Below, piece by piece: positions 9,900 to 42,504 of a stretch of 64,000 nt of DNA. Both the position numbers and the translations under genes were made by a program. The notes beneath the pieces are model-generated. The model had not been told where the DNA came from, did not search any database, and saw only the letters and a program-made list of their open reading frames with translations. The stretch's first letter is position 1. Each line of letters begins with the position of its first letter. Source of the stretch: Paramacrobiotus metropolitanus (Eukaryota > Tardigrada > Eutardigrada > Parachela > Macrobiotidae); NCBI RefSeq assembly GCF_019649055.1, contig NW_026570402.1:116366-180365 (forward strand). The letters run 5' to 3'.

Positions 9900-11866
9900 T
9901 CAGGACGCTGTATATGTACGCTGTCTTGCACTTGCCAGTATTGGACCATCCCTCTGCAGGTCTCCATAGATTTCATCCGCCACCAGTGTATGTTGCAAGC
10001 AAATCTCGTTGAATTTCGCATTACACTCTTTGCTGCCCAATCTAATTACCAATAACATGGCGGCCGTCTTCCAATCTGCTATACCTGGCTTCTTTGTTAC
10101 AGTCTTCACTCCTGTATGGTAGGTGCTGGTCGGCAGTTAAGTAGTCCGTTGCACGAACGATCTTTTCCGGCCCTCGGTTTACCTGGTATTCGATCGTCCT
10201 CATCTTCCCAGGTTATACAGACGGCATCCGATCCCCGTGCTCCGATCACTACAGCAGGACTCCAGACGTGCCCATCAGGAAGGAAAACTTCCTCCCGGTG
10301 CTGGTATTCGACATCACCAATACGAATGACCGGGGGGCCGGCGAGGTTGAGTCGGGAAGCGTAACGGGCGTTTTGTCGTGGCGTGCTTGTAACGGTACAG
10401 ATAGATGTCCCCTAGATCTGATGGCGCCAGCAAACCACACAGAAAAAAGGGCACTATAGAAGCGATCTCAACCATATTTACTGGAGGGAGAGTTGTATTT
10501 ACTCAATATTCGCCTTACGTCAGCGGGACCGTCAGCCAGTTGGATGTCAGTCATTAACGGGAATCTGATCAGGAAGAAACATTCTCCCAGGACTTGGCGC
10601 CGGTTAGCGGGCGACGGCACCAGATTGCTCGAGTGCAGGCAGCCGTAGCCCATCTGAACAGTTGGCATAATCGACATTAGCGTACTTTCGAGGCGACTGT
10701 CTGTACTTCCACTCGTAAACCAAAGATTCTGTCGCGACTGAAAACATACCATAATATGATAATAGCTAACCGGGTGAGAAATATAAGCATGCATCTTAAA
10801 TTATAAGCATGCACACATAAAGCGACGCATTCACGGATGTTTCAGCAATCTGTCAGTTTCAACAGGCACGTCTTTACTCTTCCCAAAGCTGTAAATAATT
10901 ACTTATGTAGTTTCCTTTATAACTTTCTGTTTTGCTGATTTACAGAAAGAGTAAAAAACCGTGCCGCTGAGTAAATCTACTGGCAAGGTGTCACGACGTC
11001 ACGCACTTTCTAACTGACCATAGTGACCAAAACAACCAAGAGCTTCGAATAATACGGCTGGTGTTGCTACGCCACAAAAGAAAAGGTGTAGAGCGAAGGC
11101 AATTTTTTGCTACCGTTCCTCAACGCTTTTGGATCCATAGGATATCGGGGTCGGGACAAATCCATTATTTCGTATTAAAGTACGCGCCCGGCACACAAAA
11201 CTACTGAATACCGCTTGGCCGACTTACCGATCCCCCGCCAAGTAAATGCTGTTCAGACAGCCCGCAGCCGAGAGGCTATCCCGCTGTAGCAGCATGTGCA
11301 GTGTGGTGGGATGCAGTTTATTGAACCGTTCCGACTCGAGAACCTCCTCACAGTGAACGTCCACATAGTGCCAGCAGTTCTCCACCACACTTGGGTTATC
11401 CACAGCCCATTTTAGAGCCTATAAAAAAGTACTGTTCGCACAACAGCTAAAGAACCCTAGACAACACTGCTACGGAAAATGGCATGGAGATCGGTAAGGA
11501 TGCGTGTACAACAGTGTTTTGCCAGCAGCGGCAAGTCGTACTTCTCGGCGCACTTGAGCGTCGGAAAGACATTCTCCGCTGTCGTCACCGTTTCATGGGT
11601 ATAAATATGTATATCTCTATCAAGCACAAGCCGACGAATATACATATTACTACCAATCAATGGCGATGAAAAACTGATGGTCGACCTTAAAAAACTGTAG
11701 GATCAGTTTACAAGTTGAAGCGCACCCACATTACAAACTCTGTACCTACTTTAGCATATTTTCGAAAGTTTTGGGAAGAATACCGGGAATTTCGATGGTA
11801 TCGTTGCATTTGCCAGAGAACTTCCGCAGAATGTGGTAAAGACGTCGCTGTGTTTTTCTTAATCTG
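9900..11866 (-). pseudogene. BTB-2A: BTB-BACK gene, subfamily I, frameshifted
   Basis: Recognisable exons on the minus strand: second BTB exon about 11,750-11,866 (SDVFTTFCGSS), third about 11,459-11,616 (IYTHETVTTAENVFPTLKCAEKYD), BACK 11,228-11,418 (191 nt, two codons longer than paralogs), linker 10,519-10,653 (NLVPSPANRRQVLG), and a last exon ending near 9,900-10,440. The last exon carries the C-terminal module (KRPLRFPTQPRR, GDVEYQHREEVF, RYSRLEDGRHVI) but needs at least two frame changes, one in the G-run at 10,331. The linker lacks one base that copy B has, and the second BTB exon lacks a C. No N-terminal exon with the SDVQF motif is visible upstream. The left boundary of the 10.6-kb duplication (10,395) lies inside the last exon, so only this copy keeps the module. 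Confidence 0.65.
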
Positions 11867-12757
11867 TACGTATACGCGTTTTTAGTACAGGCCACCGGCA
11901 TCATAATCGCATAAAGGCTCCAGTTCCCACGTCATTTTTGATAACAACCATCATTATACGCACCGATCGCTATCGAAGCATATGATTGTATAATACTCGT
12001 ATATCTGCATCTGTACATTATTAATATGCCGGCAATCTTAAGCGGCAAACTATTGTGAAACAATCAGTACTTTACTACTTCTATATAAATGAAAGTGTTT
12101 TCGGCTTAAACGGATTTTGAATGGTCGACCTATTGGGCTTTTAGCCCGGTCGTGGGGGTCACCGAATTGAACTTAATTATCCCCTGGTTAGCAGGAAAAC
12201 GTGTTTTACTAAGAAAAACCTTTAATAATACTAATACAACAGCTACATAAAATATTCAAGAACGTTTGTAGTGAAACAGGCTCTCCAAGTTTCGATTCAA
12301 GCGGAGGCGCGGAAATCGGCAAAACACTTCCTGGCCAGTTGTTATGATGCCGTAATAGTGTATGACTTACGTTTAACAAATTTTGGTGGATGAAATCATG
12401 AGATAGAGTGAGTAAAATTTCGTTTTCTTTGGAAAGATGTCAGGAAACTCCGTTAAAGCATAGCAAAAAAGTAAAACAGTGCATTATAGGAAGCGCTCTG
12501 AACTGAAGAATACCCAACTTGAAAAACGGTTAATTGAAATACGCAGATAATTTTCGAATAGGAACTTTTGAAGACATCTGTTACAATCGAGCGACGAGTC
12601 AGCAGTCCGGCCCGACGTTCTGGTGGCGCGAATTTCCTGTAACTAGCCGCATGGCCACTGGCAGTTACATAGGCGACCTTTTCGTTTGCAGATAAGACAT
12701 TGGTTTGGTTTTGGTGTTCCGGGGAATTAGGAGAAAATAAAGTAGATATTCCGGCAT
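11867..12757. other. Spacer between BTB-2A and BTB-3A
   Basis: AT-rich and without recognisable coding sequence. The missing first exon of BTB-2 was looked for here and not found. The same spacer recurs in copy B at about 22,500-23,397. Confidence 0.55.
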
Positions 12758-14838
12758 TTATGGGCTGTCTCGTGATAACGCGTGGCTGTCAGCGGCATCC
12801 CGTTTTCGCTTCTTCGTTAACGGGGTATCTTTCTTCCGGTTACTGCTCTGATCACTGGCTTTCTTCCACGTTTCTACTCGCTCATGTTCCACGAAAACCT
12901 GACGGAACTTAACTTTCTGTTCTTTGCGGCCCACTTTGACGATGTGGTAGCCCCCTTCCAGCCTGACATATCGCGCCTCCTTGTAACGATCCTTACTACC
13001 GGGAATCGAGAGTCGAACGTGCTGATTGGCAGTCAAGATATCCGACGCTCTAATTAGATTCCTTGTCGGCATGAGGTAGACCTGACTGCTGTTTTTAGAG
13101 CGGATAAAGACTGAGGATCCACGTTTTCCGATCACAGCAGCCGGACGCCAGTTTGGCTGCCGTTTGAAAAGATCTCTTCCTTGTGCCGGAAGTCCTGCTG
13201 CCGATGCGAATCACCGGGAGCCGGCGGGGACGTGTGGGGAAGCGATGTTTATGGTGCCGCATCTCCACTAACGCCGATGCCTCCAACAATCCATTCTACA
13301 AACAAGCCACTATTACTTAAACATTTGCTTGTGGTACACAACCGAAACGCAGTAATTTTATACACTTTATCGACACTCGCCAGTGTCGACACACAACTAC
13401 AGATACACACGATTTAGTTATTTTACGCATAAGTCAGCTTCCCACCGGTTCGGCAAATTTCTTAATTCTCGAGCCTGGCCTGGATTGCCGGTAAATATAT
13501 GCAATCTAACATCTGTAAAACATATGCAACCTTACATCTGCAGGTAAGTCGGCCACTTGCATGACAGTCATGACTGGAAATCGGATCAGGTAGAACATTT
13601 CTCCCAGGACCTCACGCCGGTTAGCGGGTGTGGGCTCCAAATTGCCCCGAGTACAAGCAGCTACCGCCCATCTGCGAAAATAAAACGATAACTGCACGGA
13701 TCCCGGTTATTAATTACATCCAGGCCCGCTTTGAAGGGGGGCGATGGGGGCGGCCACCCCTCTCGTTTTCAATTTTTGGCCCCCTACCAAAAACCCCCAG
13801 CGCGGGCCTGAACGCATCTGCAATCTATCTTTAGCTAGACCTTAGTCACCTTACCGATCCACAGCCACACAAATGAGGTTTTCGTTGGCAAACAACGTAT
13901 CGCGTTCCAGAATAGTGCGCAGCGTGCTGGGCTGTAGTTCACTGAATTCTTCCATTTTGAAGAGTTCCTTGCAGTGCACGTCTACGTAATGCAGACAGTT
14001 TTCTACCACACTATCAAATCCAACGGCCCAGGTCAGTGCCTGCAGAAAAATCGAATAAATGTCAAGCAGCGAGACTACTGTCAATTGCGGCGCATGCACA
14101 AGGGCAGTCTTAAGCAGACATACATGTTCCAGATGCAGTAGGTATCGGGCTGTGTTGCCGTGGTCCGCGATGAGATTCTGCATGATGTAATTAAGGCAGA
14201 AGTCAGTCAGTAGTGGCAAATCGTACTTGTCGGCGCACTGCATTGTCGCATAGACATCATCCAATGTCACCTGCTTCGCTGGTGTAGATGTACCTGTCGC
14301 AGTACATATCTTCGACTTTTACCCACAAAAACGTAGTTTCAGACGAACCAGCTTTCAGACGAACCAGCGAACCAGTGGCGCTGGTTCGCTGACACTTTAA
14401 TTCTGGACTGGTTCTAATAATTTAAACTCCGGCAGATTGCGAAGTCATACTTACTTCAGCATATTTTGGAATGCTTGAGGAGGGATATCCGGAATATCTA
14501 TGGGACCGTTGCGGTTCTCGGGCAGACTCCCGTTAAACATAATGTAAAACACATCGCTGGCGCTGCTGAGCACGAACCTGTTCAAAAGTACGGATCAGCA
14601 AAGGACTGCATTCATACGGTTCGCAGTAATACGCGGATTAAGTGGGTAATGACTATTGAGCTCACTTGTGTGCGTTCAGGATTTTCACTGGTCCGACATC
14701 CCGTCCTATGGAGAACTGGACGTCGCTCAGATCTCCGCTCTCCAACATGCGTTCCAACCGCTTGATGACCCCGTCAATCTGGCCCCGTCGTGGGGTGCTG
14801 GCTTTTGCTTTTGTCGAGCGTGGCGCCGTTTTCGACAT
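12758..14838 (-). pseudogene. BTB-3A: copy of BTB-3 with two net 2-nt deletions
   Basis: Six exons: 14,666-14,838, 14,455-14,577, 14,124-14,293, 13,855-14,039, 13,536-13,671 and 12,758-13,295. Content and splice sites equal BTB-3B. The third exon is 170 nt instead of 172 (a CT is missing near 14,276), and the last is 538 nt instead of 540 (one base short near 13,170 and another near 13,195). Both shift the frame, while BTB-3B is open throughout. The lesions are small run or dinucleotide losses, so sequencing error is as likely as true decay. Confidence 0.75.
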
Positions 14839-15801
14839 GCCTGCAGTGAAACGGAGCGAAGTCCTTCTGCTCTCTATAACGTATAACACAGGCAGCTATC
14901 GATATCGGATACAGATGCCTTCGTGCAAGCTCGTAATAGATTCAAAATTTAACAACGTTTTGCCAATCACTGCAAGATCACCAGGCAAGAGAATCCCACA
15001 AACAACTCAACGCCGAAATCACCAAAGAAGTGAAGAAGATCAAAGTCCATAGCCAAGAACTGCTGACGAAGATCTGCTGCAGGATTGCACTGACGGAATT
15101 CTTGATGTGCACAGTGCACGCCGAAAACAGATCATTGGATCATTCGTCAAACTGCTGACCGCACGAGGTCAGCATTTATCAGAAAGTGCACCGAGGCGGC
15201 CGTCCGTGACTGCGGCTCCGTTAAAATTCCATAGACCAATGTCCATTCACGATTAGACTGCCAGCCAGGCGGGTGCGTCTGAATCCAGTTGATGAAAATC
15301 ATGAAATCATGAAGGTGAAATATTCGGTATCACCTACCGTAGAGTACGTGTTTGGAAACGAATCACCGATCACGAAGAAAATGCATTGGTGTTTGTCATT
15401 CCCTTTTCTACTGTAGACACTGAAGATTGTGTAGTCAATTGCAACGTATTCACATAACATATTTACAACACAGGGAGATATTGTTACAAATTACAATACT
15501 ATTATTGATTATTACTACGTACGACTCGGTACTGGTCCGACACTCCCGACCCGGAAATGGAGCGTGAAGTGTTACACGATTTGAATCTTGTCTTGAAGAT
15601 ACATGTATCGAATATCCTATTTCAGTTAAGACTAAAAATAAAATGTTTAATGCAATTCAGCCGGTAATGATCCCCAGCTTGTACATGGGCCGTTCCCTGC
15701 ATTAATCTGGTTATCCGGCGGCATTATGTAAGGCCAGTGAGTGGCGGCTACTGTCTGTGACTTTTATCATGTGCATATATTGTGTAAAGCCGCAATTTGA
15801 A
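14839..15801. other. Upstream region of BTB-3A, no gene
   Basis: No convincing coding sequence. A segment near 15,230 (CCAATGTCCATTCA) resembles part of the long BTB-6 last exon region near 46,270, suggesting a diffuse repeat. The copy-B equivalent is 25,484-26,355. Confidence 0.5.
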
Positions 15802-16291
15802 TTAGCCTTTAATTCGCGATGTGGTTCCGGAGTTCGATGGTGTGAGAGGCGACTTCCGCGTGCGGTTTTGGAGTTTGAAGTGTGCCGGCATGGCCGGAGG
15901 TGCGCAATTGCAGCTGAGGATCTTACCTGTGGGAACAGGTCGCTCACTCCTGCACCTCCGCCGGTACCCGGCTTCTTCGCCCCACAAACAAGCTACTCGG
16001 ATGTACCGCTCCACGCAGTTGCTCTTCCACCTCCCGGCGCGCTGGACTTCCTCCTTTGGGAGTTGTTGCTCCGCGGCTTCCGTAGCGGCTCCGATGCTGG
16101 AAGCTGTGCGTGCTCAGTCGCGCGCAATCCGGGTGATCTTTCAGCAGTAATTTCAAAAACCGGTCTACGGCTCCGCGGGTGAGATAATCCCCATTCCGGT
16201 ACCGGAAGAATGGGGGGAGTATTCGGCTTTTTTTAATGCTCGAGAATTCTATTCGCTTAACAGCAGTAGTTATCTTAAATGCAGGGTGCAC
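15802..16291 (-). mobile_element. Tyrosine-recombinase fragment, copy A
   Basis: The minus-strand translation shows the C-terminal core of a tyrosine recombinase of the type found in DIRS-like and Crypton-like elements: a segment GDYLTRGAVDRFL, then LSTHSF, then in a shifted frame IGAATEAAE, AGRWKSN and ERYIRVACLWG. The expected H-x-x-R box is broken exactly after HSF by a frame change, so the catalytic arginine codon is lost; the GRW and Tyr-containing ERYIR boxes remain. No upstream recombinase half, reverse transcriptase or terminal repeats were found, so this is an inactive relic. Copy B lies at 26,356-26,938. Confidence 0.65.
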
Positions 16292-16659
16292 AGCGTTGCC
16301 GTTACTTTAACCGATACGGCATAATATGACCGTTTCTGTCATTTCGCGGCTGTTTCCAAACGCTAATTAATTTTACCATACGAGACGAAGACAATCAACA
16401 CTTCGAACAGAAATTCCTTTATGAAGAATAAAGTGAACCAGGTACAACAAAAACAACGATTCCAAGCAAGAAACAAAAATGAATAAAACCGCTCTGGTCT
16501 TCCGCTTCTTGTCAACCGAGCCGGTAAAGAATAACGCGTTATGCTGCAATCCATGAGACGAATCTCACTATCAGTTACGAAATAATCATACAAAGCAATA
16601 CAGTACGAATACTAAAAACACTATACATTTCGCTCGACGCTGGTGTCGGCGGGGAGTCA
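16292..16659. other. Spacer downstream of BTB-4A
   Basis: AT-rich, with no recognisable gene or repeat. Short frames on the minus strand at 16,363-16,593 have no family resemblance. Confidence 0.5.
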
Positions 16660-18612
16660 TCACAGTTGCGCGATTTCCTTAACTTTCCAGTGTAGCCAGA
16701 CTTTCCACGGCACCGTCAGATCCTCAAAATCAACCGCTACTTCCTGGCTGTCGATCTCCACCACGTGCTTTCCTCCGCGCCGCATACAGTACGTAGCCCC
16801 GCCCCGCAAGCAGTGCACCCGCTGGCCGCGCTGAAGAATATCGGTCGCACGGACGATCGTCCTCATCGATTTGAACGCATGCCCTTTTCCGCACCACTGG
16901 ATAATAATATTTTGACAATCGAGTTCCATAATAAACTCGGCCGGATACCAGTCACCATCGTCGCGTGTTGCGCGAACACAGCTTCGCGGTTCTTATACGC
17001 ATCCAGGTCGAAGTTGTGCTGGATGTAGCGGCGCGGCTCCGTCGAGAACGGGAGGGCCGGCTTTTCCGGAGCGTGCTTATAGAGGAACAGGTCACGCAGC
17101 TCCGTCGAAAGCAGTAAAGCACTCTACAAGCAAGTGCTTGTAATGTATGCTTAGCAACATTATAACTGTTGACTAGAAATATTATCAGACCTGCAACAGT
17201 TCATTCAGTAATAAGTCTGCCAGCCAGAAAGCTAAATAAAGCCAATAATATACAATACAGGTCTGTACTCCAGGTCAATTGCTTTAACACTACATCGTGA
17301 TCGAAGGAACGGGACTATCATTATCAGCCACGGCTGAATTACCTGAACAGGGCCAACAGCGAGTTCAATGTCGTTGGAGTAAAGGGAAGCGGACAAGGAA
17401 GAGCGCGGCTCCCAACATTTCGCGACGGTTGGCGGTGGACTGTTCCAGGCTGCGCTTCTCACAAGCCTCCATCGACCAACTACGAGACAAGGTGGATATG
17501 GTATTCAGAATTTCAGCGCAAACTGTACAGCATAGTTATTGATATAAGTTCAGATTTAACAGTTTAACACCGCACACAATCTGGGGTTCGACCCCGTTCA
17601 AGGCTGCATACACATCATAAGGAAAAAGTCAAGTTTCAATAACTATGATTTAAAAAATTTAATTTTTATTAAACGGTATAATAATTTGTCAATTTAAAAG
17701 ATTAAATAATTCATTACAAATTCGCTTACTTTTCTACAGCCACGTAAACGACATTCTCATCAACAGACAAAGAGTTACGCTGGAGAATCATCAGCAGGCT
17801 GTCATGACCAATGCTGTTGAACTGCTCCGAGCGCAATATAGCGTCGGCAAATTCATCGACAATGTCCATACACTTGTCCACAATGTTGTCCAAGTCCGGG
17901 CACCAACGGTTGACCTGCAGCGAAAAGCATGTGTCGAACTTTATTCATTGTACAGTCACTACAGTGTACTGTGTTGCACATCATCCGTGGAGAACCAACA
18001 TTTTCCAGCATAGTTAGGCAGTTTTCCTTAGTAACGCAGCCGATGATGCACTCGCAGCAGGCATCCACCAATAAAGGCAAACCGAACTTGTCAGCACAGT
18101 GCAGCGTTGGAAAGATGTTTGTCTCGTTGATGCCTTCCACCGAATCAGTGTAAACATAACTGAGCAGGTTGGCGAACGCGTCGGAAGGAATGTCAGGAAA
18201 GTGAATAACCAACGGACACGATTCAGCCACGCTGTTACAAATCATGCTGTAGAACACCTTGCTGCTGTTACACAAAATACTCCTGCAAAAACTGCGGTTA
18301 TTTCACGTCGAAGTTCGAACCTATCGTAATTTAATTTAAAACTGATACCAATTTCGTAATTTAAAACTGATACAAATTCCTGCATCGTATTAAAATTAGG
18401 TCTCTCAGGTGATAATAAACCGGTTACTTGTGTGCAGAGAACACTTTATCTTGGCCAAATTGGCGTCCCACGACGAACTGCACATCAGTGAACTCTCCGC
18501 TGGCCAACATGTGTTTCATGCGATCTGCGAGCTCTCCAACACCGCCACGGTGTTTCGTGCTGCCAGTGATGGTTTTGATGCCGCTGGTATCCGATGTCGG
18601 ATTAAGACACAT
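16660..18612 (-). pseudogene. BTB-4A: BTB-BACK gene, subfamily II, two frame breaks
   Basis: Five exons match BTB-4B: 18,428-18,612, 18,000-18,282, 17,730-17,914, 17,343-17,479 and 16,660-17,123. The linker exon is 137 nt here against 136 nt in copy B because of one extra base in GTTGGAG near 17,385, which shifts the frame. A second frame change near 16,965 in the last exon, between REAVFAQ and the module segment, is present in both copies. Domains are as described for BTB-4B. Confidence 0.75.
17575..17605 (+). repeat. tRNA T-arm-like sequence in an intron (copy A)
   Basis: GGGGTTCGACCCC forms a perfect T-stem and T-loop with an RNA polymerase III B-box. It lies in the BTB-4A intron between the linker and BACK exons. 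I see no matching acceptor stem, D-arm or anticodon arm upstream, so a tRNA gene is not supported; a tRNA-derived SINE relic is possible. Copy B has the same sequence at about 28,230-28,250. Confidence 0.35.
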
Positions 18613-18723
18613 GATGGAATCTGTTGCCACAGAAATTTTACCAGTTTAAACTGCGATTTCAGACGCACTTCTGGATTTCTAAGCGAACGAAATTTTCAGA
18701 ATATCAGCAAAATTTTATCGAAG

Positions 18724-18852
18724 TGGCTATTTTACCCACAGTGTTTAGTAAAATAGCTTTTGGCTATTTTGTCTTTAGTATGTGGGGCAAAATAGCCTTT
18801 TACTATTTTGCCCCACACTGCGCTTAAATAGCCATAAGCTATTTTGCCCCAG
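18724..18852. repeat. GGCAAAATAGC palindrome array, copy A
   Basis: Units of the form GCAAAATAGC - short spacer - GCTATTTTGC, each able to fold into a hairpin, repeated in tandem. This copy is more degenerate than copy B at 29,373-29,497. The largest array is at 42,505-42,882. Confidence 0.75.
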
Positions 18853-18864
18853 TATAGTCCGCAG

Positions 18865-18994
18865 CAGACCTGGGCAGTTATGGAAAATCGACCCACAGTC
18901 AGAGTTAAGAGTTACAGGGAGCGTGCGAGTTGCGCTAAGAGTTAAGTTATTTATGCAGGGAAACCGAATTTCGAGTTACACCGCGAGTTACGCT
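18865..18994. mobile_element. hAT-2 MITE, left half only (copy A)
   Basis: Starts with the terminal sequence CAGACCTGGGCAGTTA after GTCCGCAG and runs to the hAT-1 insertion point. The right half is missing because the duplication junction follows hAT-1. Confidence 0.75.
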
Positions 18995-21033
18995 TAGGGT
19001 TGTTAACGGTGCGGTTTTTTACCAGTGCACCGGTGCAATTTGGAAAAATTGCGGTGCAGTTTTGAGAAAAAAATTGGTGCAGGCGGTGCGGTTTTTGAGA
19101 AAAACCACACCGGCGCACACCGGTGCGTTTGGGTAACCGCGTTGACGTACACCGGTTAACCACCGGTTAACCGAAGATATCGTAAAATTGTAATTTTAAG
19201 AAAAAATTTTATGAGACGACGGTGCACACCGGATTCGCGCCTAATAAGCGCACGGGCCATGACGGGCGTAAGTCTGTAACGTACAAAAATAGACCAGATG
19301 CGCATAGGCGCTTCGGGGACTTACTTACAACGTTTTTCACCCTTTACATACAGACATCGAACGCAAAACCGCGCCCGTTTACGCGTCTTGCATGTATGTA
19401 TGTACGGGCTAAACTCGACCGCATGCGCACAACAGTCAGCACATACAGACTGACAGTTAATATGCGTGCTGTGCTGACATTATGCTTCTAACGATAAACT
19501 GTAGCACTACATTTCTAAAAGTTAAACAATGACATATAACCTGTTTAAAAGTACCAAAACAAGGCGCGCTAAGGTACTGCTATGCAGTATTATTTTAAGC
19601 TAAAATAAACAAAAAATACAACAAGATATACTAAAAATACTTCGGGTAGCTAGATCACAGCGGAACCCGCCACACGGTCAAGAAAAACATACAATTCTCT
19701 GTCAAAATATACGGACGAAAAACCAAAAATGGGGTTGTCCAGGAGTATAAATCGTAGTCGGTTTTCCACATCCGATCAGGAATTCAAGCACAGAATGCAC
19801 TGCAATCAACACCCACAGCTGGTAGCCAGCGCGCAGGGTTCCTGCGATACGACGGCAGTAATACATGACAAGTATACCACAAATCGTTAGAGACAGCCAC
19901 AAGGATTCATGGACCTTTGGCAAGTCGGAATCAATTTGTAATACGCTAGTCAGCTGCGGTGGGATTCAAATTATTTTGAATTGAACGATAATCAGGTAGC
20001 AAGCGATCAGTATAAACAGGAGTGCATCTGGCCAAACACTATACTGCACTGTCTTATCTGGATTCCCAGAACACAGGCTTCCTGCACTATAGATGCATAT
20101 CAGTTTTATATTTCTGATTTCAACAACTAACTAGAAGACAAGAACTTAAAAAGAGACGGAAAACCCTGTCGTTTTACTGTTTAACCGTCGCTGTCAGCCC
20201 AAAGTATGGAGAAACGATCACGTGGTTTTGAATTTTGCTATTGGCGGTGGGCAGCCTCGATCTAACTCAGAATGCTGACCCACCAATAAAAATCGCGGAA
20301 ACACGAAGTTTGTAAGTACCTGGGCGTCGCTTAGACCCGTTACAAGGTACGCCCCTGTTCGTAACGGTTTTCGTCGACGCCTACCGACAGACATCGAGCA
20401 AAAAGCGACTTACATCGAAGCCCAGCCAATTGGGACTTGGTACGCCTGTTTCTCGTTTCGATGTAAGTCGCAGATGCTCTATGTAAGTCCGCGTTTTGAC
20501 TCTGCGCATCTTCTGGAATATTCACTCACAAGTTATACAGTACTGTACTTGAAGCTGGCTTGAATAATTATCGGCTTGATACTGTAGCTGCTGCAACAAC
20601 CGGGCTACCATAAGAAAGAAAATGTGAAGCACTGTAGCGCAAGCGTTTGACAGTTTCCACGCTCTACAATTTTTTTCGTCATTGAAATTTTTTGGAAATC
20701 CCTTTTGGATGTTTTACGTCTTTGTAACAGTTTCGCTACGACTGGATACATCCTGCTGGGGATGCTTAGGAAGTTTAACTTAAGCCCAAAAATTCCGGTG
20801 GGATAAAGAGGAAAGCGCAGAGCGCGTAACATTTCGCTGTTGCAGTACTGATGCGCGCTACACCGGTGTACACCGGTGCGGTGCGGTGTAAAAAATTGCG
20901 GTGCGATTTTCGATTTTCACGACACCGTCCGGTGCGGTTTTTCGCTTTACACCGATTAAGTAGGTGCGATTTCTGTAAAAAACCGCACCGAAGCCACACC
21001 GGTGTACACCGCACCGCACCGTTAACAACCCTA
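18995..21033. mobile_element. hAT-1 non-autonomous transposon, copy A (2,039 bp)
   Basis: Ends are TAGGGTTGTTAACGGTGCGG on the left and its reverse complement on the right. Many subterminal GGTGCGGT/ACCGCACC repeats lie inside, as is typical of hAT transposase-binding ends. The left flank is GTTACGCT and the right flank is GTACAGAT, so there is no target duplication for this copy. No transposase-like frame exists internally. An internal inverted repeat GCGACTTACATCGAA...TTCGATGTAAGTCGC lies at about 20,403-20,470. Confidence 0.85.
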
Positions 21034-26355: not shown

Positions 26356-26938
26356 TTATCCGGCGGCATTATGTAAGGCCAGTGAGTGGCGGCTACTGTC
26401 TGTGACTTTTATCATGTGCATATATTGTGTAAAGCCGCAATTTGAATTAGCCTTTAATTCGCGATGTGGTTCCGGAGTTCGATGGTGTGAGAGGCGACTT
26501 CCGCGTGCGGTTTTGGAGTTTGAAGTGTGCCGGCATGGCCGGAGGTGCGCAATTGCAGCTGAGGATCTTACCTGTGGGAACAGGTCGCTCACTCCCTGCA
26601 CCCTCCGCCGGTACCCGGCTTCTTCGCCCCACAAACAAGCTACTCGGATGTACCGCTCCACGCAGTTGCTCTTCCACCTCCCGGCGCGCTGGACTTCCTC
26701 CTTTGGGAGTTGTTGCTCCGCGGCTTCCGTAGCGGCTCCGATGCTGGAAGCTGTGCGTGCTCAGTCGCGCGCAATCCGGGTGATCTTTCAGCAGTAATTT
26801 CAAAAACCGGTCTACGGCTCCGCGGGTGAGATAATCCCCATTCCGGTACCGGAAGAATGGGGGGAGTATTCGGCTTTTTTTAATGCTCGAGAATTCTATT
26901 CGCTTAACAGCAGTAGTTATCTTAAATGCAGGGTGCAC
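26356..26938 (-). mobile_element. Tyrosine-recombinase fragment, copy B
   Basis: Same relic as at 15,802-16,291. The first frame (26,447-26,938, 163 codons) carries GDYLTRGAVDRFL and LSTHSF. The second (26,356-26,661) carries ERYIRVACLWGEEAG. The break at the HSF-Arg box is present in both copies, so it predates the duplication and is not a copy-specific error. Confidence 0.65.
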
Positions 26939-27309
26939 AGCGTTGCCGTTACTTTAACCGATACGGCATAATATGACCGTTTCTGTCATTTCGCGGCTGT
27001 TTCCAAACGCTAATTAATTTTACCATACGAGACGAAGACAATCAACACTTCGAACAGAAATTCCTTTATGAAGAATAAAGTGAACCAGGTACAACAAAAA
27101 CAACGATTCCAAGCAAGAAACAAAAATGAATAAAACCGCTCTGGTCTTCCGCTTCTTGTCAACCGAGCCGGTAAAGAATAACGCGTTATGCTGCAATCCA
27201 TGAGACGAATCTCACTATCAGTTACGAAATAATCATACAAAGCAATACAGTACGAATACTAAAAACACTAAGTACATTTCGCTCGACGCTGGTGTCGGCG
27301 GGGGAGTCA
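26939..27309. other. Spacer downstream of BTB-4B
   Basis: Copy of 16,292-16,659. No gene recognised. Confidence 0.5.
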
Positions 27310-29259: not shown

Positions 29260-29372
29260 GATGGAATCTGTTGCCACAGAAATTTTACCAGTTTAAACTG
29301 CGATTTCAGACGCACTTCTGGATTTCTAAGCGAACGAAATTTTCAGAATATCAGCAAAATTTTATCGAAGTG

Positions 29373-29497
29373 GCTATTTTACCCCAGTGTTTGTGGCAAA
29401 ATAGCTTTTGGCTATTTTGCCCCAGTATGTGGGGCAAAATAGCCTTTTACTATTTTGCCCCACACTGCGCTTAAATAGCCATAAGCTATTTTGCCCC
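29373..29497. repeat. GGCAAAATAGC palindrome array, copy B
   Basis: Three or more hairpin units such as GGGGCAAAATAGC...CTATTTTGCCCC in tandem, about 115-240 bp upstream of the BTB-4B start codon. Better conserved than copy A. Confidence 0.8.
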
Positions 29498-29511
29498 AGT
29501 ATAGTCCGCAG

Positions 29512-31848
29512 CAGACCTGGGCAGTTATGGAAAATCGACCCACAGTCAGAGTTAAGAGTTACAGGGAGCGTGCGAGTTGCGCTAAGAGTTAAGTTATTTA
29601 TGCAGGGAAACCGAATTTCGAGTTACACCGCGAGTTACGCTTAGGGTTGTTAACGGTGCGGTTTTTTACCAGTGCACCGGTGCAATTTGGAAAAATTGCG
29701 GTGCAGTTTTGAGAAAAAAATTGGTGCAGGCGGTGCGGTTTTTGAGAAAAACCACACCGGCGCACACCGGTGCGTTTGGGTAACCGCGTTGACGTACACC
29801 GGTTAACCACCGGTTAACCGAAGATATCGTAAAATTGTAATTTTAAGAAAAATTTTATGAGACGACGGTGCACACCGGATTCGCGCCTAATAAGCGCACG
29901 GGCCATGACGGGCGTAAGTCTGTAACGTACAAAATAGACCAGATGCGCATAGGCGCTTCGGGGACTTACTTACAACGTTTGTCACCCTTTACATACAGAC
30001 ATCGAACGCAAAACCGCGCCCGTTTACGCGTCTTGCATGTATGTATGTACGGGCTAAACTCGACCGCATGCGCACAACAGTCAGCACATACAGACTGACA
30101 GTTAATATGCGTGCTGTGCTGACATTATGCTTCTAACGATAAACTGTAGCACTACATTTCTAAAAGTTAAACAATGACATATAACCTGTTTAAAAGTACC
30201 AAAACAAGGCGCGCTAAGGTACTGCTATGCAGTATTATTTTAAGCTAAAATAAACAAAAAAATACAACAAGATATACTAAAAATACTTCTGGGTAGCCAG
30301 ATCACAGCGGGAACCCGCCACACGGTCAAGAAAAACATACAATTCTCTGTCAAAATATACGGACGAAAAACCAAAAATGGGGTTGTCCAGGAGTATAAAT
30401 CGTAGTCGGTTTTCCACATCCGATCAGGAATTCAAGCACAGAATGCACTGCAATCAACACCCACAGCTGGGTAGCCAGCGCGCAGGGTTCCCTGCGATAC
30501 GACGGCAGTAATACATGACAAGTATACCACAAATCGTTAGAGACAGCCACAAGGATTCATGGACCTTTGGCAAGTCGGAATCAATTTGTAATACGCTAGT
30601 CAGCTGCGGTGGGATTCAAATTATTTTGAATTGAACGATAATCAGGTAGCAAGCGATCAGTATAAACAGGAGTGCATCTGGCCAAACACTATACTGCACT
30701 GTCTTATCTGGATTCCCAGAACACAGGCTTCCTGCACTATAGATGCATATCAGTTTCATATTTCTGATTTCAACAACAAACTAGAAGGCAAGAACTTAAA
30801 AACTTAAAAAAGACGGAAAACCCTGTCGTTTTACTGTTTAACCGTCGCTGTCAGCCCAAAGTATGGAGAAACGATCACGTGGTTTTGAATTTTGCTATTG
30901 GCGGTGGGCAGCCTCGATCTAACTCAGAATGCTGACCCACCAATAAAAAATCGCGGAAACACGAAGTTTGTAGTACCTGGGCGTCGCTTAGACCGTTACA
31001 AGGTACGCCCCTGTTCGTAACGGTTTTCGTCGACGCCTACCGACAGACATCGAGCAAAAAGCGACTTACATCGAAGCCCAGCCAATTGGGACTTGGTACG
31101 CCTGTTTCTCGTTTCGATGTAAGTCGCAGATGCTCTATGTAAGTCCGCGTTTTGACTCTGCGCATCTTCTGGAATATTCACTCACAAGTTATACAGTACT
31201 GTACTTGAAGCTGGCTTGAATAATTATCGGCTTGATACTGTAGCTGCTGCAACAACCGGGCTACCATAAGAAAGAAAATGTGAAGCACTGTAGCGCAAGC
31301 GTTTGACAGTTTCCACGCTCTACAATTTTTTTCGTCATTGAAATTTTTTGGAAATCCCTTTTGGATGTTTTACGTCTTTGTAACAGTTTCGCTACGACTG
31401 GATACATCCTGCTGGGGATGCTTTTAGGAAGTTTAACTTAAGCCCAAAAATTCCGGTGGGATAAAGAGGAAAGCGCAGAGCGCGTAACATTTCGCTGTTG
31501 CAGTACTGATGCGCGCTACACCGGTGTACACCGGTGCGGTGCGGTGTAAAAAATTGCGGTGCGATTTTCGATTTTCACGACACCGTCCGGTGCGGTTTTT
31601 CGCTTTACACCGATTAAGTAGGTGCGATTTCTGTAAAAAACCGCACCGAAGCCACACCGGTGTACACCGCACCGCACCGTTAACAACCCTAGTTACGCTA
31701 CCATAGACAATATATACTATTTTTATGAGAGTTACGTTAGAGTTAAGTTTTCTTCTGAGCGAGTTACGCTAAAGAGTTAAGTTATAACTCAATAACTCGA
31801 AAATAACTCGCGTTAAGTTAAATAGTTAAAATTAACTGCCCAGGTCTG
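29512..31848. mobile_element. hAT-2 MITE (about 279 bp) with hAT-1 nested inside
   Basis: Perfect 16-bp terminal inverted repeats, CAGACCTGGGCAGTTA and TAACTGCCCAGGTCTG, are flanked on both sides by the 8-bp duplication GTCCGCAG (29,504-29,511 and 31,849-31,856). The interior is rich in GAGTTAC/GTTAAG motifs. hAT-1 copy B occupies 29,642-31,691. Removing it and one target copy leaves a MITE of about 279 bp. The 8-bp duplication and CAG...CTG ends indicate the hAT superfamily. It has no coding capacity. Confidence 0.9.
29642..31691. mobile_element. hAT-1 non-autonomous transposon, copy B, complete with target duplication
   Basis: 2,050 bp with ends TAGGGTTG and CAACCCTA, flanked by GTTACGCT on the left (29,634-29,641) and GTTACGCT on the right (31,692-31,699). 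The perfect 8-bp duplication assigns it to hAT. It is the only one of the three copies with both flanks original, so this is the founding insertion. Subterminal GGTGCGGT-type repeats are dense in the outer 150-200 bp. There is no transposase frame, so movement would need an enzyme from elsewhere. Confidence 0.92.
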
Positions 31849-33139
31849 GTCCGCAGAATAGCCGTAAGCTAATTTGTCAAACGCTCTGTTCGAATAAATT
31901 GTGGACCCCGACTAGAAAATGTTAGGCCACTCAATTTTTCCGATGATTCCAGTGAGAAAAGCGGGAACGCAGTGAAGAAGCGCGATGTGTATTGTGGGTA
32001 CAATCCCTTGCCTCCCTAATGCGACAACCCCTCCATAACGGGAAAACTGTTGAGGCGCCCAAAAGGTGTCCATTACGGTATAGGCTTATAGCAGACTAAC
32101 TCTGCGTGATCAGTGCTGGAGGTGACGTTACAACAGAATCTGAATGAAGAAACCAAAAATTACTGCCAGTGCCGTTTAATGTGGTTTTCTGGAACAATGA
32201 TCGGTTTGGGCGAAATTTGTTTGTGAAAGCGAAAGCTAGGAACAAATCTTTAGAATACTGATGTCGTTTATAGCGGGAGCGTACGGCGAAAGACAGAAGA
32301 ACGGACGACCTTTCCTGCTGTTACACGCGGTAAAGAAGGTTCTGCGACAATTGCATTTTCATACCGCTACCGACCACGAAAACATCGTTAGAGCGACTCT
32401 TTTCTGAAATTGTTACGAAGAAGTACTCGAAATGGAATACTATATCCGGGAAGCTCTGGAATCCTTATCTGGAACCTTACCCTAAAGAATCCGACGCCAT
32501 TATCCAGTCGACGTAGAAGAGACGGATCCAAAACCCGTAGCGTGTCTCCAGCTGGTTGCAGAGGAACAAATATAACGCCAGCGCCAGATGAAAGCAGAGG
32601 CAAATAAGCAAGATTGTTGTGCGACCTTTGCTCAAGCAAGGAGTGACCTTTGATGACAAATTAATGAGAATCGTACTGGTACTGGAAGTCTCCTGCATCC
32701 ACGGTAGTCAACAATGGTTCTGTATCGGTAGTGGTGCCATGTCGTGGTACTGTAAACAGTAAGAACCGTAATTTTGAAGCCGGTAATAGTGCCGCAGAAA
32801 ATCGTTTGATTGTCGCCTAAGAGATAGTTTTGGGTCGGCCCTGGCCGGCCTGAGTAAGAGGTGCGGCCGTCGTTTACATCGAGGCCGCGGCCAGGGCCGT
32901 CTAGCAGCACAGATATATTTCATTCCAGTTGTCATTGTACAAGCGGCTACAAAGGGTATGTTAAAGAATACACGGATATCTGCCCACAAAACGTTTATTT
33001 GTGCGAAAACAAAGAAAAACTCCTCGAAGAACAATGAATTTCAGTAAATCCCAAAAATAGTTTTTTGTTGTTCTACTTCATTTTCCACATTAAACGCCTA
33101 CAGCGGGCCGCGGCCTGGACCCTGGCCTTCTCTGGGCCG
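31849..33139. other. Unique segment, first copy: no confident gene
   Basis: No recognised gene. A GC-rich block near 32,833-32,905 and another near 33,100-33,180 contain many GGCC clusters, partly inverted relative to each other, and could be ends of a further small element. One degenerate TACTGG-type unit lies near 32,705. The second copy is at 36,516-37,790. Confidence 0.45.
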
Positions 33140-34322
33140 AGCTCGACCTGGGCCACGGCCTCGGCCGGGCGGCCCTACAGTGTTAAGGGATAGTGTTAAA
33201 ACATGTTGAAGTCATGGTATTGTTTTCGGCAAGAAAATGCATCGGAACGATGTTTCACTTTACTAAGATTCACCTAGGTAACTTTCCGTACCTTGGTGCC
33301 GTAGTTAGGGGTCCGGTTTACCGCTGTTCGTAGCGGCCGAATCCGTAGAACTTCCGGTTATTTGTTTAAATTGGGCGGTTAAAAACGGTTTCCTGCTTTC
33401 ATCCGCCATTATGGGTTAAGTTAATGAATTCTGTCCACTTTACCATGTACGATTCACGTTGGATGGAATGAGGCCGGATGTGTCGCTATCGGTGAACCGG
33501 CTCCGAAGTGCGTTCCTTCTAACTCCATCTTCCAACCGCAAGTGGAGGCCTGCTTGAACTCGTTCGATCTGCTCTTGCGAGTACATTCTCGTACCTGAGG
33601 GGTTTTCGTGGCGCCAGAGCTCGTATGAGCCCGACCTGTTCCCTGGCCAAGTGTCAAATTCGACCTCTTTTTGTGGTTGAAAGAATATTTTTGCTGGGGA
33701 CCAAATCTTTCCGCGCCTTCGTACCTGTTCAGTTTCATGATTTCGCTTAGCGAGTCGATGATTGATTCGTTTGTTGGCCGTCCCCGCGCCTTAAACGGCC
33801 CTTAGGCCGAATGCCCTTGCATCCGCTTGCCAAGCAAATTAAAATTTTTGGTGGTAGGAGCCGGGGTGTCGCTGCCGGTGGATTCGTCCCATAGTCCGAC
33901 CGGTCTAACTTCTGACCGTCAGAGGTGGTCCGTTCGCGCTTCGTTCACTTTTCAAAGCATTATAGTCGACTTAATATTGCCGTCGATTACGGTTACGTTG
34001 ATAACTCGTATGCCTGCGGTTCCCAGCCCGTAACAGTCCAAGATAGCCTCGCATCTGGCGAGCGGGAGTCCTTCGGGATGGGCCGAGGTATTCTTGTGGT
34101 TTGTTTCCATCTGACCACTCGTAGAGACCTAATTTGGTCCGAGAAGCCTCCGTGTTGAAGTATTTAGTCTCGATTTCGACGGACGCTTTCTTTGTTTTGC
34201 TCGGAGATACCATATTTGAATCTCAAATTGGACGTCTTTAAAATGGGGCACCTGTTGAAGTTCTTCGTGCGAGTCATCATCAGTGCGCCTTTGCAACGGC
34301 AATCAAAACGGAGCATCCCCCT
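33140..34322 (-). mobile_element. Minus-strand coding-like remnant, first copy (gypsy-associated, tentative)
   Basis: Open minus-strand stretches at 33,454-33,738 and 33,971-34,213 have biased, protein-like composition but match no domain I know. They lie just beyond the point where the Ty3/gypsy RNase H remnant (39,276-39,318) continues in the second copy, in the same strand order, so they may be the decayed 3-prime part of that element. Copy 1 and copy 2 differ in a T-run (near 33,661 and 38,341) that changes the frame. Confidence 0.4.
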
Positions 34323-36358
34323 TAGGGTTGTTAACGGTGCGGTTTTTTACCAGTGCACCGGTGCAATTTGGAAAAATTGCGGTGCAGTTTTGAGAAAAAA
34401 ATTGGTGCAGGCGGTGCGGTTTTTGAGAAAAACCACACCGGCGCACACCGGTGCGTTTGGGTAACCGCGTTGACGTACACCGGTTAACCACCGGTTAACC
34501 GAAGATATCGTAAAATTGTAATTTTAAGAAAAAATTTTATGAGACGACGGTGCACCGGATTCGCGCCTAATAAGCGCACGGCCATGACGGGCGTAAGTCT
34601 GTAACGTACAAAATAGACCAGATGCGCATAGGCGCTTCGGGGACTTACCAACGTTTTTCACCCTTTACATACAGACATCGAACGCAAAAACCGCGCCCGT
34701 TTACGCGTCTTGCATGTATGTATGTACGGGCTAAACTCGACCGCATGCGCACAACAGTCAGCACATACAGACTGACAGTTAATATGCGTGCTGTGCTGAC
34801 ATTATGCTTCTAACGATAAACTGTAGCACTACATTTCTAAAAGTTAAACAATGACATATAACCTGTTTAAAAGTACCAAAACAAGGCGCGCTAAGGTACT
34901 GCTATGCAGTATTATTTTAGCTAAAATAAACAAAAAAATACAACAAGATATACTAAAAATACTTCTGGGTAGCCAGATCACAGCGGAACCCGCCACACGG
35001 TCAAGAAAAACATACAATTCTCTGTCAAAATATACGGACGAAAAACCAAAAATGGGGTTGTCCAGGAGTATAAATCGTAGTCGGTTTTCCACATCCGATC
35101 AGGAATTCAAGCACAGAATGCACTGCAATCAACACCCACAGCTGGGTAGCCAGCGCGCAGGGTTCCCTGCGATACGACGGCAGTAATACATGACAAGTAT
35201 ACCACAAATCGTTAGAGACAGCCACAAGGATTCATGGACCTTTTGGCAAGTCGGAATCAATTTGTAATACGCTAGTCAGCTGCGGTGGGATTCAAATTAT
35301 TTTGAATTGAACGATAATCAGGTAGCAAGCGATCAGTATAAACAGGAGTGCATCTGGCCAAACACTATACTGCACTGTCTTATCTGGATTCCCAGAACAC
35401 AGGCTTCCCTGCACTATAGATGCATATCAGTTTCATATTTCTGATTTCAACAACAAACTAGAAGGCAAGAACTTAAAAAACTTAAAAAAAGACGGAAAAC
35501 CCTGTCGTTTTACTGTTTAACCGTCGCTGTCAGCCCAAAGTATGGAGAAACGATCACGTGGTTTTGAATTTTGCTATTGGCGGTGGGCAGCCTCGATCTA
35601 ACTCAGAATGCTGACCCACCAATAAAAATCGCGGAAACACGAAGTTTGTAAGTACCTGGGCGTCGCTTAGACCCGTTACAAGGTACGCCCCTGTTCGTAA
35701 CGGTTTTCGTCGACGCCTACCGACAGACATCGAGCAAAAAGCGACTTACATCGAAGCCCAGCCAATTGGGACTTGGTACGCCTGTTTCTCGTTTCGATGT
35801 AAGTCGCAGATGCTCTATGTAAGTCCGCGTTTTGACTCTGCGCATCTTCTGGAATACTCACAAGTTATACAGTACTGTACTTGAAGCTGGCTTGAATAAT
35901 TATCGGCGATACTGTAGCTGCTGCAACAACCGGGCTACCATAAGAAAGAAAATGTGAAGCACTGTAGCGCAAGCGTTTGACAGTTTCCACGCTCTACAAT
36001 TTTTTTCGTCATTGAAATTTTTGGAAATCCTTTTGGATGTTTTACGTCTTTGTAACAGTTTCGCTACGACTGGATACATCCTGCTGGGGATGCTTTTAGG
36101 AAGTTTAACCAAGCCCAAAAATTCCGGTGGGATAAAGAGGAAAGCGCAGAGCGCGTAACATTTCGCTGTTGCAGTACTGATGCGCGCTACACCGGTGTAC
36201 ACCGGTGCGGTGCGGTGTAAAAAATTGCGGTGCGATTTTCGATTTTCACGACACCGTCCGGTGCGGTTTTCGCTTTACACCGATTAAGTAGGTGCGATTT
36301 CTGTAAAACCGCACCGAAGCCACACCGGTGTACACCGCACCGCACCGTTAACAACCTA
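34323..36358. mobile_element. hAT-1 non-autonomous transposon, copy C (2,036 bp)
   Basis: Left end TAGGGTTG is preceded by ATCCCCCT; right end CAACCTA (one C short) is followed by GTTACGCT. The right flank is the original context shared with copy B. The left flank is a new target whose uninterrupted form is seen at 38,988-38,995, followed by TATAGCAGG. Confidence 0.88.
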
Positions 36359-36515
36359 GTTACGCTACCATAGACAATATATACTATTTTTATGAGAGTT
36401 ACGTTAGAGTTAAGTTTTCTTCTGAGCGAGTTACGCTAAAGAGTTAAGTTATAACTCAATAACTCGAAAATAACTCGCGTTAAGTTAAATAGTTAAAATT
36501 AACTGCCCAGGTCTG
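36359..36515. mobile_element. hAT-2 MITE, right half only (copy C)
   Basis: Runs from the hAT-1 right flank GTTACGCT to the terminal TAACTGCCCAGGTCTG, followed by GTCCGCAG. The left half is absent because the junction precedes hAT-1. Confidence 0.75.
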
Positions 36516-38995
36516 GTCCGCAGAATAGCCGTAAGCTAATTTGTCAAACGCTCTGTTCGAATAAATTGTGGACCCCGACTAGAAAATGTTAGGCCACTCA
36601 ATTTTTCCGATGATTCCAGTGAGAAAAGCGGGAACGCAGTGAAGAAGCGCGATGTGTATTGTGGGTACAATCCCTTGCCTCCCTAATGCGACAACCCCTC
36701 CATAACGGGAAAACTGTTGAGGCGCCCAAAAGGTGTCCATTACGGTATAGGCTTATAGCAGACTAACTCTGCGTGATCAGTGCTGGAGGTGACGTTACAA
36801 CAGAATCTGAATGAAGAAACCAAAATTACTGCCAGTGCCGTTTAATGTGGTTTTCTGGAACAATGATCGGTTTGGGCGAAATTTGTTTGTGAAAGCGAAA
36901 GCTAGGAACAAATCTTTAGAATACTGATGTCGTTTATAGCGGGAGCGTACGGCGAAAGACAGAAGAACGGACGACCTTTCCTGCTGTTACACGCGGTAAA
37001 GAAGGTTCTGCGACAATTGCATTTTCATACCGCTACCGACCACGAAAACATCGTTAGAGCGACTCTTTTCTGAAATTGTTACGAAGAAGTACTCGAAATG
37101 GAATACTATATCCGGGAAGCTCTGGAATCCTTATCTGGAACCTTACCTAAAGAATCCGACGCCATTATCCAGTCGACGTAGAAGAGACGGATCCAAAACC
37201 CGTAGCGTGTCTCCAGCTGGTTGCAGAGGAACAAATATAACGCCAGCGCCAGATGAAAGCAGAGGCAAATAAGCAAGATTGTTGTGCGACCTTTGCTCAA
37301 GCAAGGAGTGACCTTTGATGACAAATTAATGAGAATCGTACTGGTACTGGAAGTCTCCTGCATCCACGGTAGTCAACAATGGTTCTGTATCGGTAGTGGT
37401 GCCATGTCGTGGTACTGTAAACAGTAAGAACCGTAATTTTGAAGCCGGTAATAGTGCCGCAGAAAATCGTTTGATTGTCGCCTAAGAGATAGTTTTGGGT
37501 CGGCCCTGGCCGGCCCGAGCAAGAGGGTGCGGCCGTCGTTTACACATCCGAGGCCGCGGCCAGGGCCGTCTAGCAGCACAGATATATTTCATTCCCAGTT
37601 GTCATTGTACAAGCGGCTACAAAGGGTATGTTAAAGAATACACGGATATCTGCCCACAAAACGTTTATTTGTGCGAAAACAAAGAAAAACTCCTCGAAGA
37701 ACAATGAATTTCAGTAAATCCCAAAAATAGTTTTTTGTTGTTCTACTTCATTTTCCACATTAAACGCCTACAGCGGGCCGCGGCCCGGACCCTGGCCCTT
37801 CTCTCTGGGCCGAGCTCGACCCGGGCCACGGCCCTCGGCCGGGCGGCCCTACAGTGTTAAGGGATAGTGTTAAAACATGTTGAAGTCATGGTATTGTTTT
37901 CGGCAAGAAAATGCATCGGAACGATGTTTCACTTTACTAAGATTCACCTAGGTAACTTTCCGTACCTTGGTGCCGTAGTTAGGGGTCCGGTTTACCGCTG
38001 TTCGTAGCGGCCGAATCCGTAGAACTTCCGGTTATTTGTTTAAATTGGGCGGTTAAAAACGGTTTCCTGCTTTCATCCGCCATTATGGGTTAAGTTAATG
38101 AATTCTGTCCACTTTACCATGTACGATTCACGTTGGATGGAATGAGGCCGGATGTGTCGCTATCGGTGAACCGGCTCCGAAGTGCGTTCCTTCTAACTCC
38201 ATCTTCCAACCGCAAGTGGAGGCCTGCTTGAACTCGTTCGATCTGCTCTTGCGAGTACATTCTCGTACCTGAGGGGTTTTCGTGGCGCCAGAGCTCGTAT
38301 GAGCCCGACCTGTTCCCTGGCCAAGTGTCAAATTCGACCTCTTTTGTGGTTGAAAGAATATTTTTGCTGGGGACCAAATCTTTCCGCGCCTTCGTACCTG
38401 TTCAGTTTCATGATTTCGCTTAGCGAGTCGATGATTGATTCGTTTGTTGGCCGTCCCCGCGCCTTAAACGGCCCTTAGGCCGAATGCCCTTGCATCCGCT
38501 TGCCAAGCAAATTAAAATTTTTGGTGGTAGGAGCCGGGGTGTCGCTGCCGGTGGATTCGTCCCATAGTCCGACCGGTCTAACTTCTGACCGTCAGAGGTG
38601 GTCCGTTCGCGCTTCGTTCACTTTTCAAAGCATTATAGTCGACTTAATATTGCCGTCGATTACGGTTACGTTGATAACTCGTATGCCTGCGGTTCCCAGC
38701 CCGTAACAGTCCAAGATAGCCTCGCATCTGGCGAGCGGGAGTCCTTCGGGATGGGCCGAGGTATTCTTGTGGTTTGTTTCCATCTGACCACTCGTAGAGA
38801 CCTAATTTGGTCCGAGAAGCCTCCGTGTTGAAGTATTTAGTCTCGATTTCGACGGACGCTTTCTTTGTTTTGCTCGGAGATACCATATTTGAATCTCAAA
38901 TTGGACGTCTTTAAAATGGGGCACCTGTTGAAGTTCTTCGTGCGAGTCATCATCAGTGCGCCTTTGCAACGGCAATCAAAACGGAGCATCCCCCT
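36516..38995. other. Unique segment, second copy, with minus-strand remnants
   Basis: Copy of 31,849-34,322. The minus frame 38,114-38,377 (87 codons) is longer here than in the first copy because a T-run is one base shorter. Its composition is protein-like but I recognise no domain. The GC-rich GGCC blocks recur near 37,500-37,570 and 37,775-37,855. No complete gene. Confidence 0.45.
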
Positions 38996-41427: not shown

Positions 41428-41462
41428 GCTTCTTCAGCGGGCTGCTTCTTCAGCGGGCTGTC
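41428..41462. repeat. Short direct duplication
   Basis: GCTTCTTCAGCGGGCT occurs twice back to back in the GC-rich region. Confidence 0.6.
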
Positions 41463-42472: not shown

Positions 42473-42504
42473 ATCGACCTTATGATTATCATTTTCCCGT
42501 CCAT

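Follow-up and report, generated by a model that had tools for sequence, protein, structure and literature searches.

Tandem gene duplication is usually ascribed to homologous recombination or to replication slips, and work in maize has shown that cut-and-paste transposons of the hAT superfamily can make tandem duplications directly. Here we describe a locus comparable to those maize cases, found in a stretch of 64,000 nucleotides (the window) from the tardigrade Paramacrobiotus metropolitanus (NW_026570402.1, positions 116,366 to 180,365; hereafter contig C182). In this window two direct tandem duplications meet at the ends of a 2.05-kb hAT element, designated hAT-1. Our tentative reading, held with somewhat less than even confidence, is that the locus is a real and very recent double tandem duplication that the hAT element would have produced through alternative transposition.

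The closest described systems come from maize. Zhang et al. (2013) reported nine new tandem duplications with end-points exactly at the ends of Ac, as well as three natural duplications beside other hATs, two of which have a matched element and an element with a single matched flank (PMC3744419). They argued that crossing-over of non-allelic Ac would leave Ac at the outer end-points, which were in fact empty and unscarred (PMC3744419). That argument does not cover crossing-over between insertion-polymorphic chromosomes, the model proposed in the initial annotation of the present stretch. The Ac duplications and the tardigrade locus are alike in being kilobase-scale direct tandem duplications beside a hAT, with end-points that coincide with its ends, a joint element of which one flank is novel, and an outer end that is empty and unscarred. 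The maize alleles were, however, isolated de novo, one of them with its reciprocal deletion, and are one-sided in each allele (PMC3744419), whereas our locus comes from an animal assembly only, extends to both sides of one element and has no reciprocal product that we could see. The three dhAT-Zm duplications of the maize B73 reference (PMC3744419) are likewise drawn from a reference genome and share the same flank signature in two of three cases. Their repeats measure 116-1,262 bp and are 93-99% identical, whereas those described here span 8.6 and 2.6 kb, are near-identical and share one element. Maize transposition-mediated re-replication also yields tandem duplication at hAT ends with an 8-bp target duplication, but the reported alleles contain composite insertions that include a break-fusion joint (PMC4270019), and nothing of the kind was seen here.

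Related processes have been described in other settings, including alternative transposition of VANDAL21 in Arabidopsis (PMC12312487) and an Ac/Ds transgene system for chromosome rearrangements in rice. A limited search of titles, the beginnings of abstracts and a few papers, which is no proof of absence, returned no animal tandem duplication at hAT ends. It did bring up a paper on the blast fungus, which cites Zhang et al. in its reference list only, and one on Sleeping Beauty in mice. Alternative transposition itself is already known or proposed in animals, namely for the P element and in Anopheles. The P element is not a hAT. Its hybrid element insertion in Drosophila also rearranges chromosomes through the ends of two transposon copies (PMC3744419, PMC1952172). 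For the Anopheles inversion 2Rj, alternative transposition was proposed on a putative 8-bp target duplication split between the joints; the rearrangement reported there is an inversion accompanied by inserted repeats of 14.6 kb, unlike a tandem duplication at hAT ends, and its authors were likewise unable to separate alternative transposition from crossing-over (PMC1952172). Copies of the DNA transposon Galileo in Drosophila also recombine and rearrange the chromosome, the reported products being inversions rather than tandem duplications next to one element (PMC2775673).

Anatomy of the duplicated locus

The window reads in the order L, X, hAT-1 copy A, X, hAT-1 copy B, Y, hAT-1 copy C, Y, R, in which X (8,600 bp) and Y (2,631 bp) are each present twice in direct tandem. 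The individual features are as follows.

10395..10402, plus strand: outer end-point 1, GTACAGAT (site 1); no hAT and no footprint
10395..18994, plus strand: X copy 1, 8,600 bp; begins at the unoccupied GTACAGAT and ends in GTTACGCT
18995..21033, plus strand: hAT-1 copy A, a joint element, 2,039 bp; left flank GTTACGCT, right flank GTACAGAT
21034..29641, plus strand: X copy 2; 22 difference events relative to copy 1, including a single pure substitution
29642..31691, plus strand: hAT-1 copy B, the original insertion (site 2), 2,050 bp; 8-bp target-site duplication GTTACGCT on both sides
31692..34322, plus strand: Y copy 1, 2,631 bp; ends in ATCCCCCT
34323..36358, plus strand: hAT-1 copy C, a joint element, 2,036 bp; left flank ATCCCCCT, right flank GTTACGCT
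36359..38995, plus strand: Y copy 2; ends at the unoccupied ATCCCCCT; 12 difference events relative to copy 1
38988..38995, plus strand: outer end-point 2, ATCCCCCT (site 3); no hAT and no footprint

The novel joints, at 21,033/21,034 and 34,322/34,323, coincide with the terminal base of hAT-1, and neither contains a deletion or filler. Copies A and C each carry flanks that mismatch one another at 4 of 8 positions, so that B alone is matched, and the 40-mers spanning the A-right and C-left joints each occur once in the window. At the outer ends, the uninterrupted GTACAGAT (10,395) and ATCCCCCT (38,988) have no second, partial 8-bp copy beside them and thus no transposon footprint. Comparison of the window with itself (matches of at least 150 bp) returned 21,034-31,693 against 10,395-21,035 at 99.5% identity and 34,321-38,997 against 29,640-34,324 at 98.9%. 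The remaining listed matches were hAT-1 A against C (97.8%) and others at or below 86.3%. With X and Y being kilobase repeats and both joints exact to the base, a chance origin can be rejected.

These results agree to the base with the three hAT-1 copies and flanks given in the initial annotation, and the two hAT-jointed tandem duplications it described are present; its figure of about 13.3 kb for a collapsed single locus compares with 13,281 bp by our calculation. It had also pointed out that the right flank of copy A is the sequence found at 10,395, which is true but follows from the duplication itself. What does inform is the coincidence of both joints with the element's terminal base, together with the restriction of matched flanks to B.

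In the genome assembly as a whole (169,799,020 bp in 533 contigs), X and Y each have two near-identical matches, all at this locus (best 40 of 405 and of 228 candidates scored, respectively); everything else among the listed matches is either a diverged relative or a dispersed repeat. No allelic contig was found for L (2,500-10,394), X, Y or R (38,996-43,000), as none of the best 40 candidates scored in each search was near-identical over the whole query. The best partial match listed for R, on contig C62, is 95% identical over 2.1 kb, a stretch that many contigs match less closely.

The hAT-1 family and the insertion of copy B

hAT-1 terminates in TAGGGTTGTTAACGGTGCGG at both ends. The 20-bp end sequence matches 35 times per strand genome-wide with at most two mismatches (70 in total, many unpaired), whereas a backward-read control gave 0. 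On C182 the listed ends fall solely at the three copies, and none were listed on contig C237. Longer copies of ~3.4-3.5 kb with the same ends, on C92, C126 and C272, contain a Dimer_Tnp_hAT domain; when separate pieces were searched again, this domain recurred in C92 and C126, and zf-BED was found in C92 and C272. With ends shared with these longer copies encoding hAT-dimerisation and BED domains, and with target-site duplications of 8 bp, hAT-1 belongs to the hAT superfamily, as a non-autonomous member with the longer copies as possible helpers.

The flanks of other family members supply a measure of what is normal. Among 20 copies outside the locus (19 fetched two-ended copies and L020), 18 carry an exact 8-bp target-site duplication, and the other two, L028 and L035, deviate by one and two mismatches. 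It is against this background that the hybrid flanks of A and C are abnormal. Two further family copies deserve mention in their own right. In L027 (C37:1127022-1128496) the right end and flank are tandemly duplicated (positions 729-936 and 1269-1475) as 208-bp repeats that are 99.5% identical, the second lying ~540 bp further on than the first; the 8-bp flank reappears after the second right end, and the second joint falls within the element, resembling the 'fractured element' case of maize. L038 (C38:544486-549895) is a 5.3-kb copy that bears the family's hAT ends, each with one mismatch, between exact 8-bp flanks; similar long open frames on both strands of its interior suggest an internal inverted repeat.

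All three copies at the locus are composites that contain a nested, unrelated repeat:

29935..31177 in copy B, no strand assigned: nested repeat of ~1.24 kb at hAT-1 positions ~294-1536; present in A and C too

The nested repeat also occurs apart from hAT ends, at ~95-97% identity, on C91, C63, C21 (twice), C363 and C65, and its relatives are scattered through the genome at ~73-97% identity. The nearest hAT-1 relative lacking the insert is L020, with outer parts that are 93.6 and 94.9% identical to those of hAT-1. We found no full-length composite elsewhere in the 169.8 Mb, just copies A, B and C (best 40 of 136 candidates scored, a search that lower-ranked copies could escape but in which full-length ones are expected at the top). 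Since the composite is present in full length at this locus alone, linked moves are indicated rather than a genome-wide burst.

Copy B lies within a dispersed repeat of about 290 bp, which the insertion divides into two parts:

18865..18994, no strand assigned: left part of the repeat, X positions 8471-8600; host of the hAT-1 insertion
31692..31850, no strand assigned: right part of the same repeat; empty copies elsewhere cross the site with a single 8 bp

Thirteen of the matches listed outside C182 (best 40 of 405 candidates) reach the X side of the site (X 8598-8600), and 12 of them have a listed partner on the Y side. The X- and Y-side matches of these 12 overlap by 8 bp in ten cases and by 6 bp in two, as is the case for an empty site with a single 8 bp; an example is C30:692115-692244 and 692237-692395 (overlap 8). 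The thirteenth, on C82, has no Y-side partner among the matches listed (best 40 of 228 candidates). Because the empty repeats carry the 8 bp once, B is confirmed as an ordinary insertion with a target-site duplication, in line with the initial annotation, which had taken B as the original.

Possible routes to the double duplication

In the reading that we prefer, the starting state would be one hAT-1 insertion, the present copy B, at GTTACGCT between X and Y. In reversed-ends transposition, two directly oriented hAT copies would each contribute one end, the first its right and the second its left; these ends would be excised together, and their insertion into the sister chromatid would duplicate the DNA between element and target. 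A target at GTACAGAT, 8.6 kb leftward, would double X and leave copy A as the joint; one at ATCCCCCT, 2.6 kb rightward, would double Y and leave copy C. Whichever duplication came first would supply the directly oriented hAT pair for the second event, and the first event would require another linked hAT copy, since lost, or a crossing-over. Three parts of this scheme we infer: that living animals have the joints, that a sister chromatid was involved, and the succession of the events.

We explored this scheme in a token simulation with seven starting chromosomes and targets limited to unoccupied sites. One reversed-ends event was enough to reach the observed order and flanks when the chromosome already had X alone duplicated (target 38,988) or Y alone duplicated (target 10,395). 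Where the start held another hAT on the right, one event duplicated X, and a hAT persisted further right. Hallmarks of reversed-ends transposition are also present at the locus itself: the duplication end-point lies at a hAT end, one matched element is accompanied by joint elements with novel flanks, and the outer ends are empty and unscarred.

Unequal homologous crossing-over between same-orientation hAT-1 copies at differing sites would likewise produce both duplications and the hybrid-flanked joints, provided that local moves had earlier carried hAT-1 from site 2 to site 1 and to site 3 in part of the chromosomes. This is the route preferred in the initial annotation. We consider this route possible, if on the doubtful side. 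In our simulation single crossovers gave X-only and Y-only duplications, and a crossover of X-only by Y-only gave the full order. Crossing-over has the merit of requiring no unusual transposase activity, and it accounts for empty outer ends wherever the partner chromosomes had no hAT at sites 1 and 3. It does require hAT-1 at both outer sites, in each case oriented as in B. Among the best 40 of 136 candidates there was no full-length hAT-1 outside the locus, and no contig among the best 40 candidates of each search showed an allele with such an insertion, although a merged haploid assembly may lose alleles. The initial annotation's proposal is thus sufficient to generate the arrangement, but the outer-site alleles on which it depends were not found among the candidates scored in the merged assembly. 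The differences among the copies were also considered as markers of crossover points inside A and C and proved uninformative, being nearly all private and mostly error-like.

Alternative transposition, which the initial annotation had listed as its second route, is favoured here over crossing-over. We infer it from its smaller demand for unseen insertions and from the joints, which bear its known signature, one for which maize offers the precedent (PMC3744419). Several observations weigh against it. One hAT alone is not enough to set the process going: of the seven simulated starts, the five with no earlier duplication all failed to reach the present arrangement in a single event. The scheme therefore has to assume either a crossing-over or a second copy that has since disappeared. 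The progenitor would have held two directly oriented linked copies, and the partner in the first event is absent among the full-length copies found (best 40 of 136). Crossing-over leaves an identical final sequence, and the sequence therefore cannot separate the two routes. Target preference lends sites 1 and 3 no independent support: among window 8-mers, GTACAGAT scores in the top 2.4% and ATCCCCCT in the top 42%, while 18 known sites range from 0.1% to 62%. The joints themselves are read from the assembled sequence, in which difference events private to one copy are commoner in the joint copies (11 in A, 14 in C) than in B (6), and this could reflect thinner read support there.

This last point bears on the assembly itself, which appears to be that of Paramacrobiotus sp. 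TYO (PMC8277472), though it is not the identical file. That strain was sequenced from ~3,000 pooled animals, with R9.4 nanopore data at 45x and Illumina data at 62x, which were processed with Canu keeping heterozygosity, nanopolish, Pilon, HaploMerger2 and Pilon again (PMC8277472). Since the assembly is pooled, noisy and haplotype-merged, an artefact is a serious possibility. Pilon can leave errors in places to which short reads map ambiguously. Specifically, different chromosomes of the pooled animals may have carried hAT-1 at sites 1, 2 and 3, and the assembler or the haplotype merging may have switched from one to another inside the 2-kb element and so written X and Y twice, an explanation that we regard as rather unlikely. 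In its favour, the share of false duplications in three older vertebrate assemblies was 4-16% (PMC9516828), and HaploMerger2 is able not only to join contigs that overlap but also to mis-scaffold overlaps that diverge (PMC9526047). In a moth study, however, Canu with HaploMerger2 was among the combinations with the fewest misassembly candidates (PMC9526047), and a gap between same-scaffold copies, typical of false duplications (PMC9516828), is missing from our window, which contains no N. Two independent misjoins would be required across a 2-kb repeat. The nanopore reads averaged ~10.6 kb (7.65e9 bases in 7.22e5 reads), five times the element length. Insertion alleles at sites 1 and 3 would still be needed, and the window contains no further near-identical self-duplication.

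The differences between copies speak to the artefact explanation in both directions. Over their 8.6 kb the X copies are separated by 22 events, namely 18 pure one-copy gaps, 1 pure substitution and 3 mixed events. Nearly all are thus indels of the consensus-error type, which counts in favour of an artefact, and the greater number of private differences in the joint copies than in B points the same way. On the other hand, the pure gaps fall in either X copy (11 in copy 1, 7 in copy 2), and such independent error-like differences count against it: because they differ between the X copies, each copy was apparently built from its own reads. A single read set printed twice is disfavoured as a sole cause by the same 22 differences.

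Over 2.6 kb, 12 events separate the Y copies (6 pure gaps, 4 pure substitutions and 2 mixed). At all four substitutions (32,851-33,149 against 37,516-37,822) copy 1 reads T where copy 2 reads C, and at three of them the next base is G; either CpG decay or methylation-linked nanopore errors would account for them. Within hAT-1, private events number 11 in A (6 with gaps, 5 substitutions), 6 in B (5 and 1, respectively) and 14 in C (all gapped), plus one mixed event; a cluster in A (20,107-20,153) falls within the nested repeat. The length differences among A, B and C arise largely from private short indels. Nearly all of the differences among the three copies are private and, where outside relatives cover the site, they are mostly contradicted by those relatives. 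Most copy differences therefore look like nanopore consensus errors, with the substitutions in Y and A as possible exceptions. No date can be given for the duplications, which are either too recent or too strongly homogenised.

Other processes that happened to use the hAT ends, whether by template switching, by end-joining after a cut at the hAT, or through a circle that was excised and re-integrated, appear highly improbable to us. Cut hAT ends can in principle join elsewhere, and circle re-integration via the hAT yields the same sequence as crossing-over. Two base-exact joints with neither deletion nor filler are, however, unexpected from end-joining or template switching.

Gene content and implications

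The X segment holds pieces of at least two minus-strand BTB/BACK genes, represented in copy 2 by the following:

24497..25066, minus strand: BTB/BACK gene piece; BACK 3.8e-08 (above the cut-off), BTB 0.0024 (under the cut-off)
28376..28949, minus strand: second BTB/BACK gene, two overlapping open pieces; BTB 1.3e-13 and BACK 5.4e-06, both above the cut-off

These pieces are ~66-82% like places on C182 and C237, reaching 87% identity in one stretch of C237. Pfam searches also gave a Serpin match above the cut-off and a CAP match under it, which together with the BTB/BACK domains point to an animal; Pfam returned nothing for 7 of 10 pieces in one set and 8 of 10 in another, and Rfam gave no match. 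Diverged BTB/BACK-like tandem relatives (~68-81% within the window) are located at 1,600-2,480, 17,700-18,650, 44,940-45,780, 47,985-48,870 and 50,800-51,400, and further relatives elsewhere on C182 and on C237 form part of this older gene cluster. The new duplication accordingly lies where older tandem relatives were already plentiful. Just beyond the duplication, at 39,925-40,053, is a perfect 18-bp tandem repeat of 7.2 copies in an open frame (TAQPLP repeats). The end of the window (64,000) is the end of contig C182 (180,365 bp), and the segment 63,524-63,993 is 86% like 43,697-44,171.

With respect to the wider biology, it is possible, if still doubtful, that one animal hAT insertion drove serial, two-way tandem amplification of the adjoining genes, here of the BTB/BACK type, without meiotic recombination. 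Such an array would be self-propagating, as each duplication would make the directly oriented hAT ends that enable the next. Should the locus prove to be a misassembly, it would serve as a useful warning on hAT-jointed duplications in pooled, haplotype-merged assemblies. If it is real, this fresh, two-sided case would render the reach of the mechanism beyond plants testable at a single locus.

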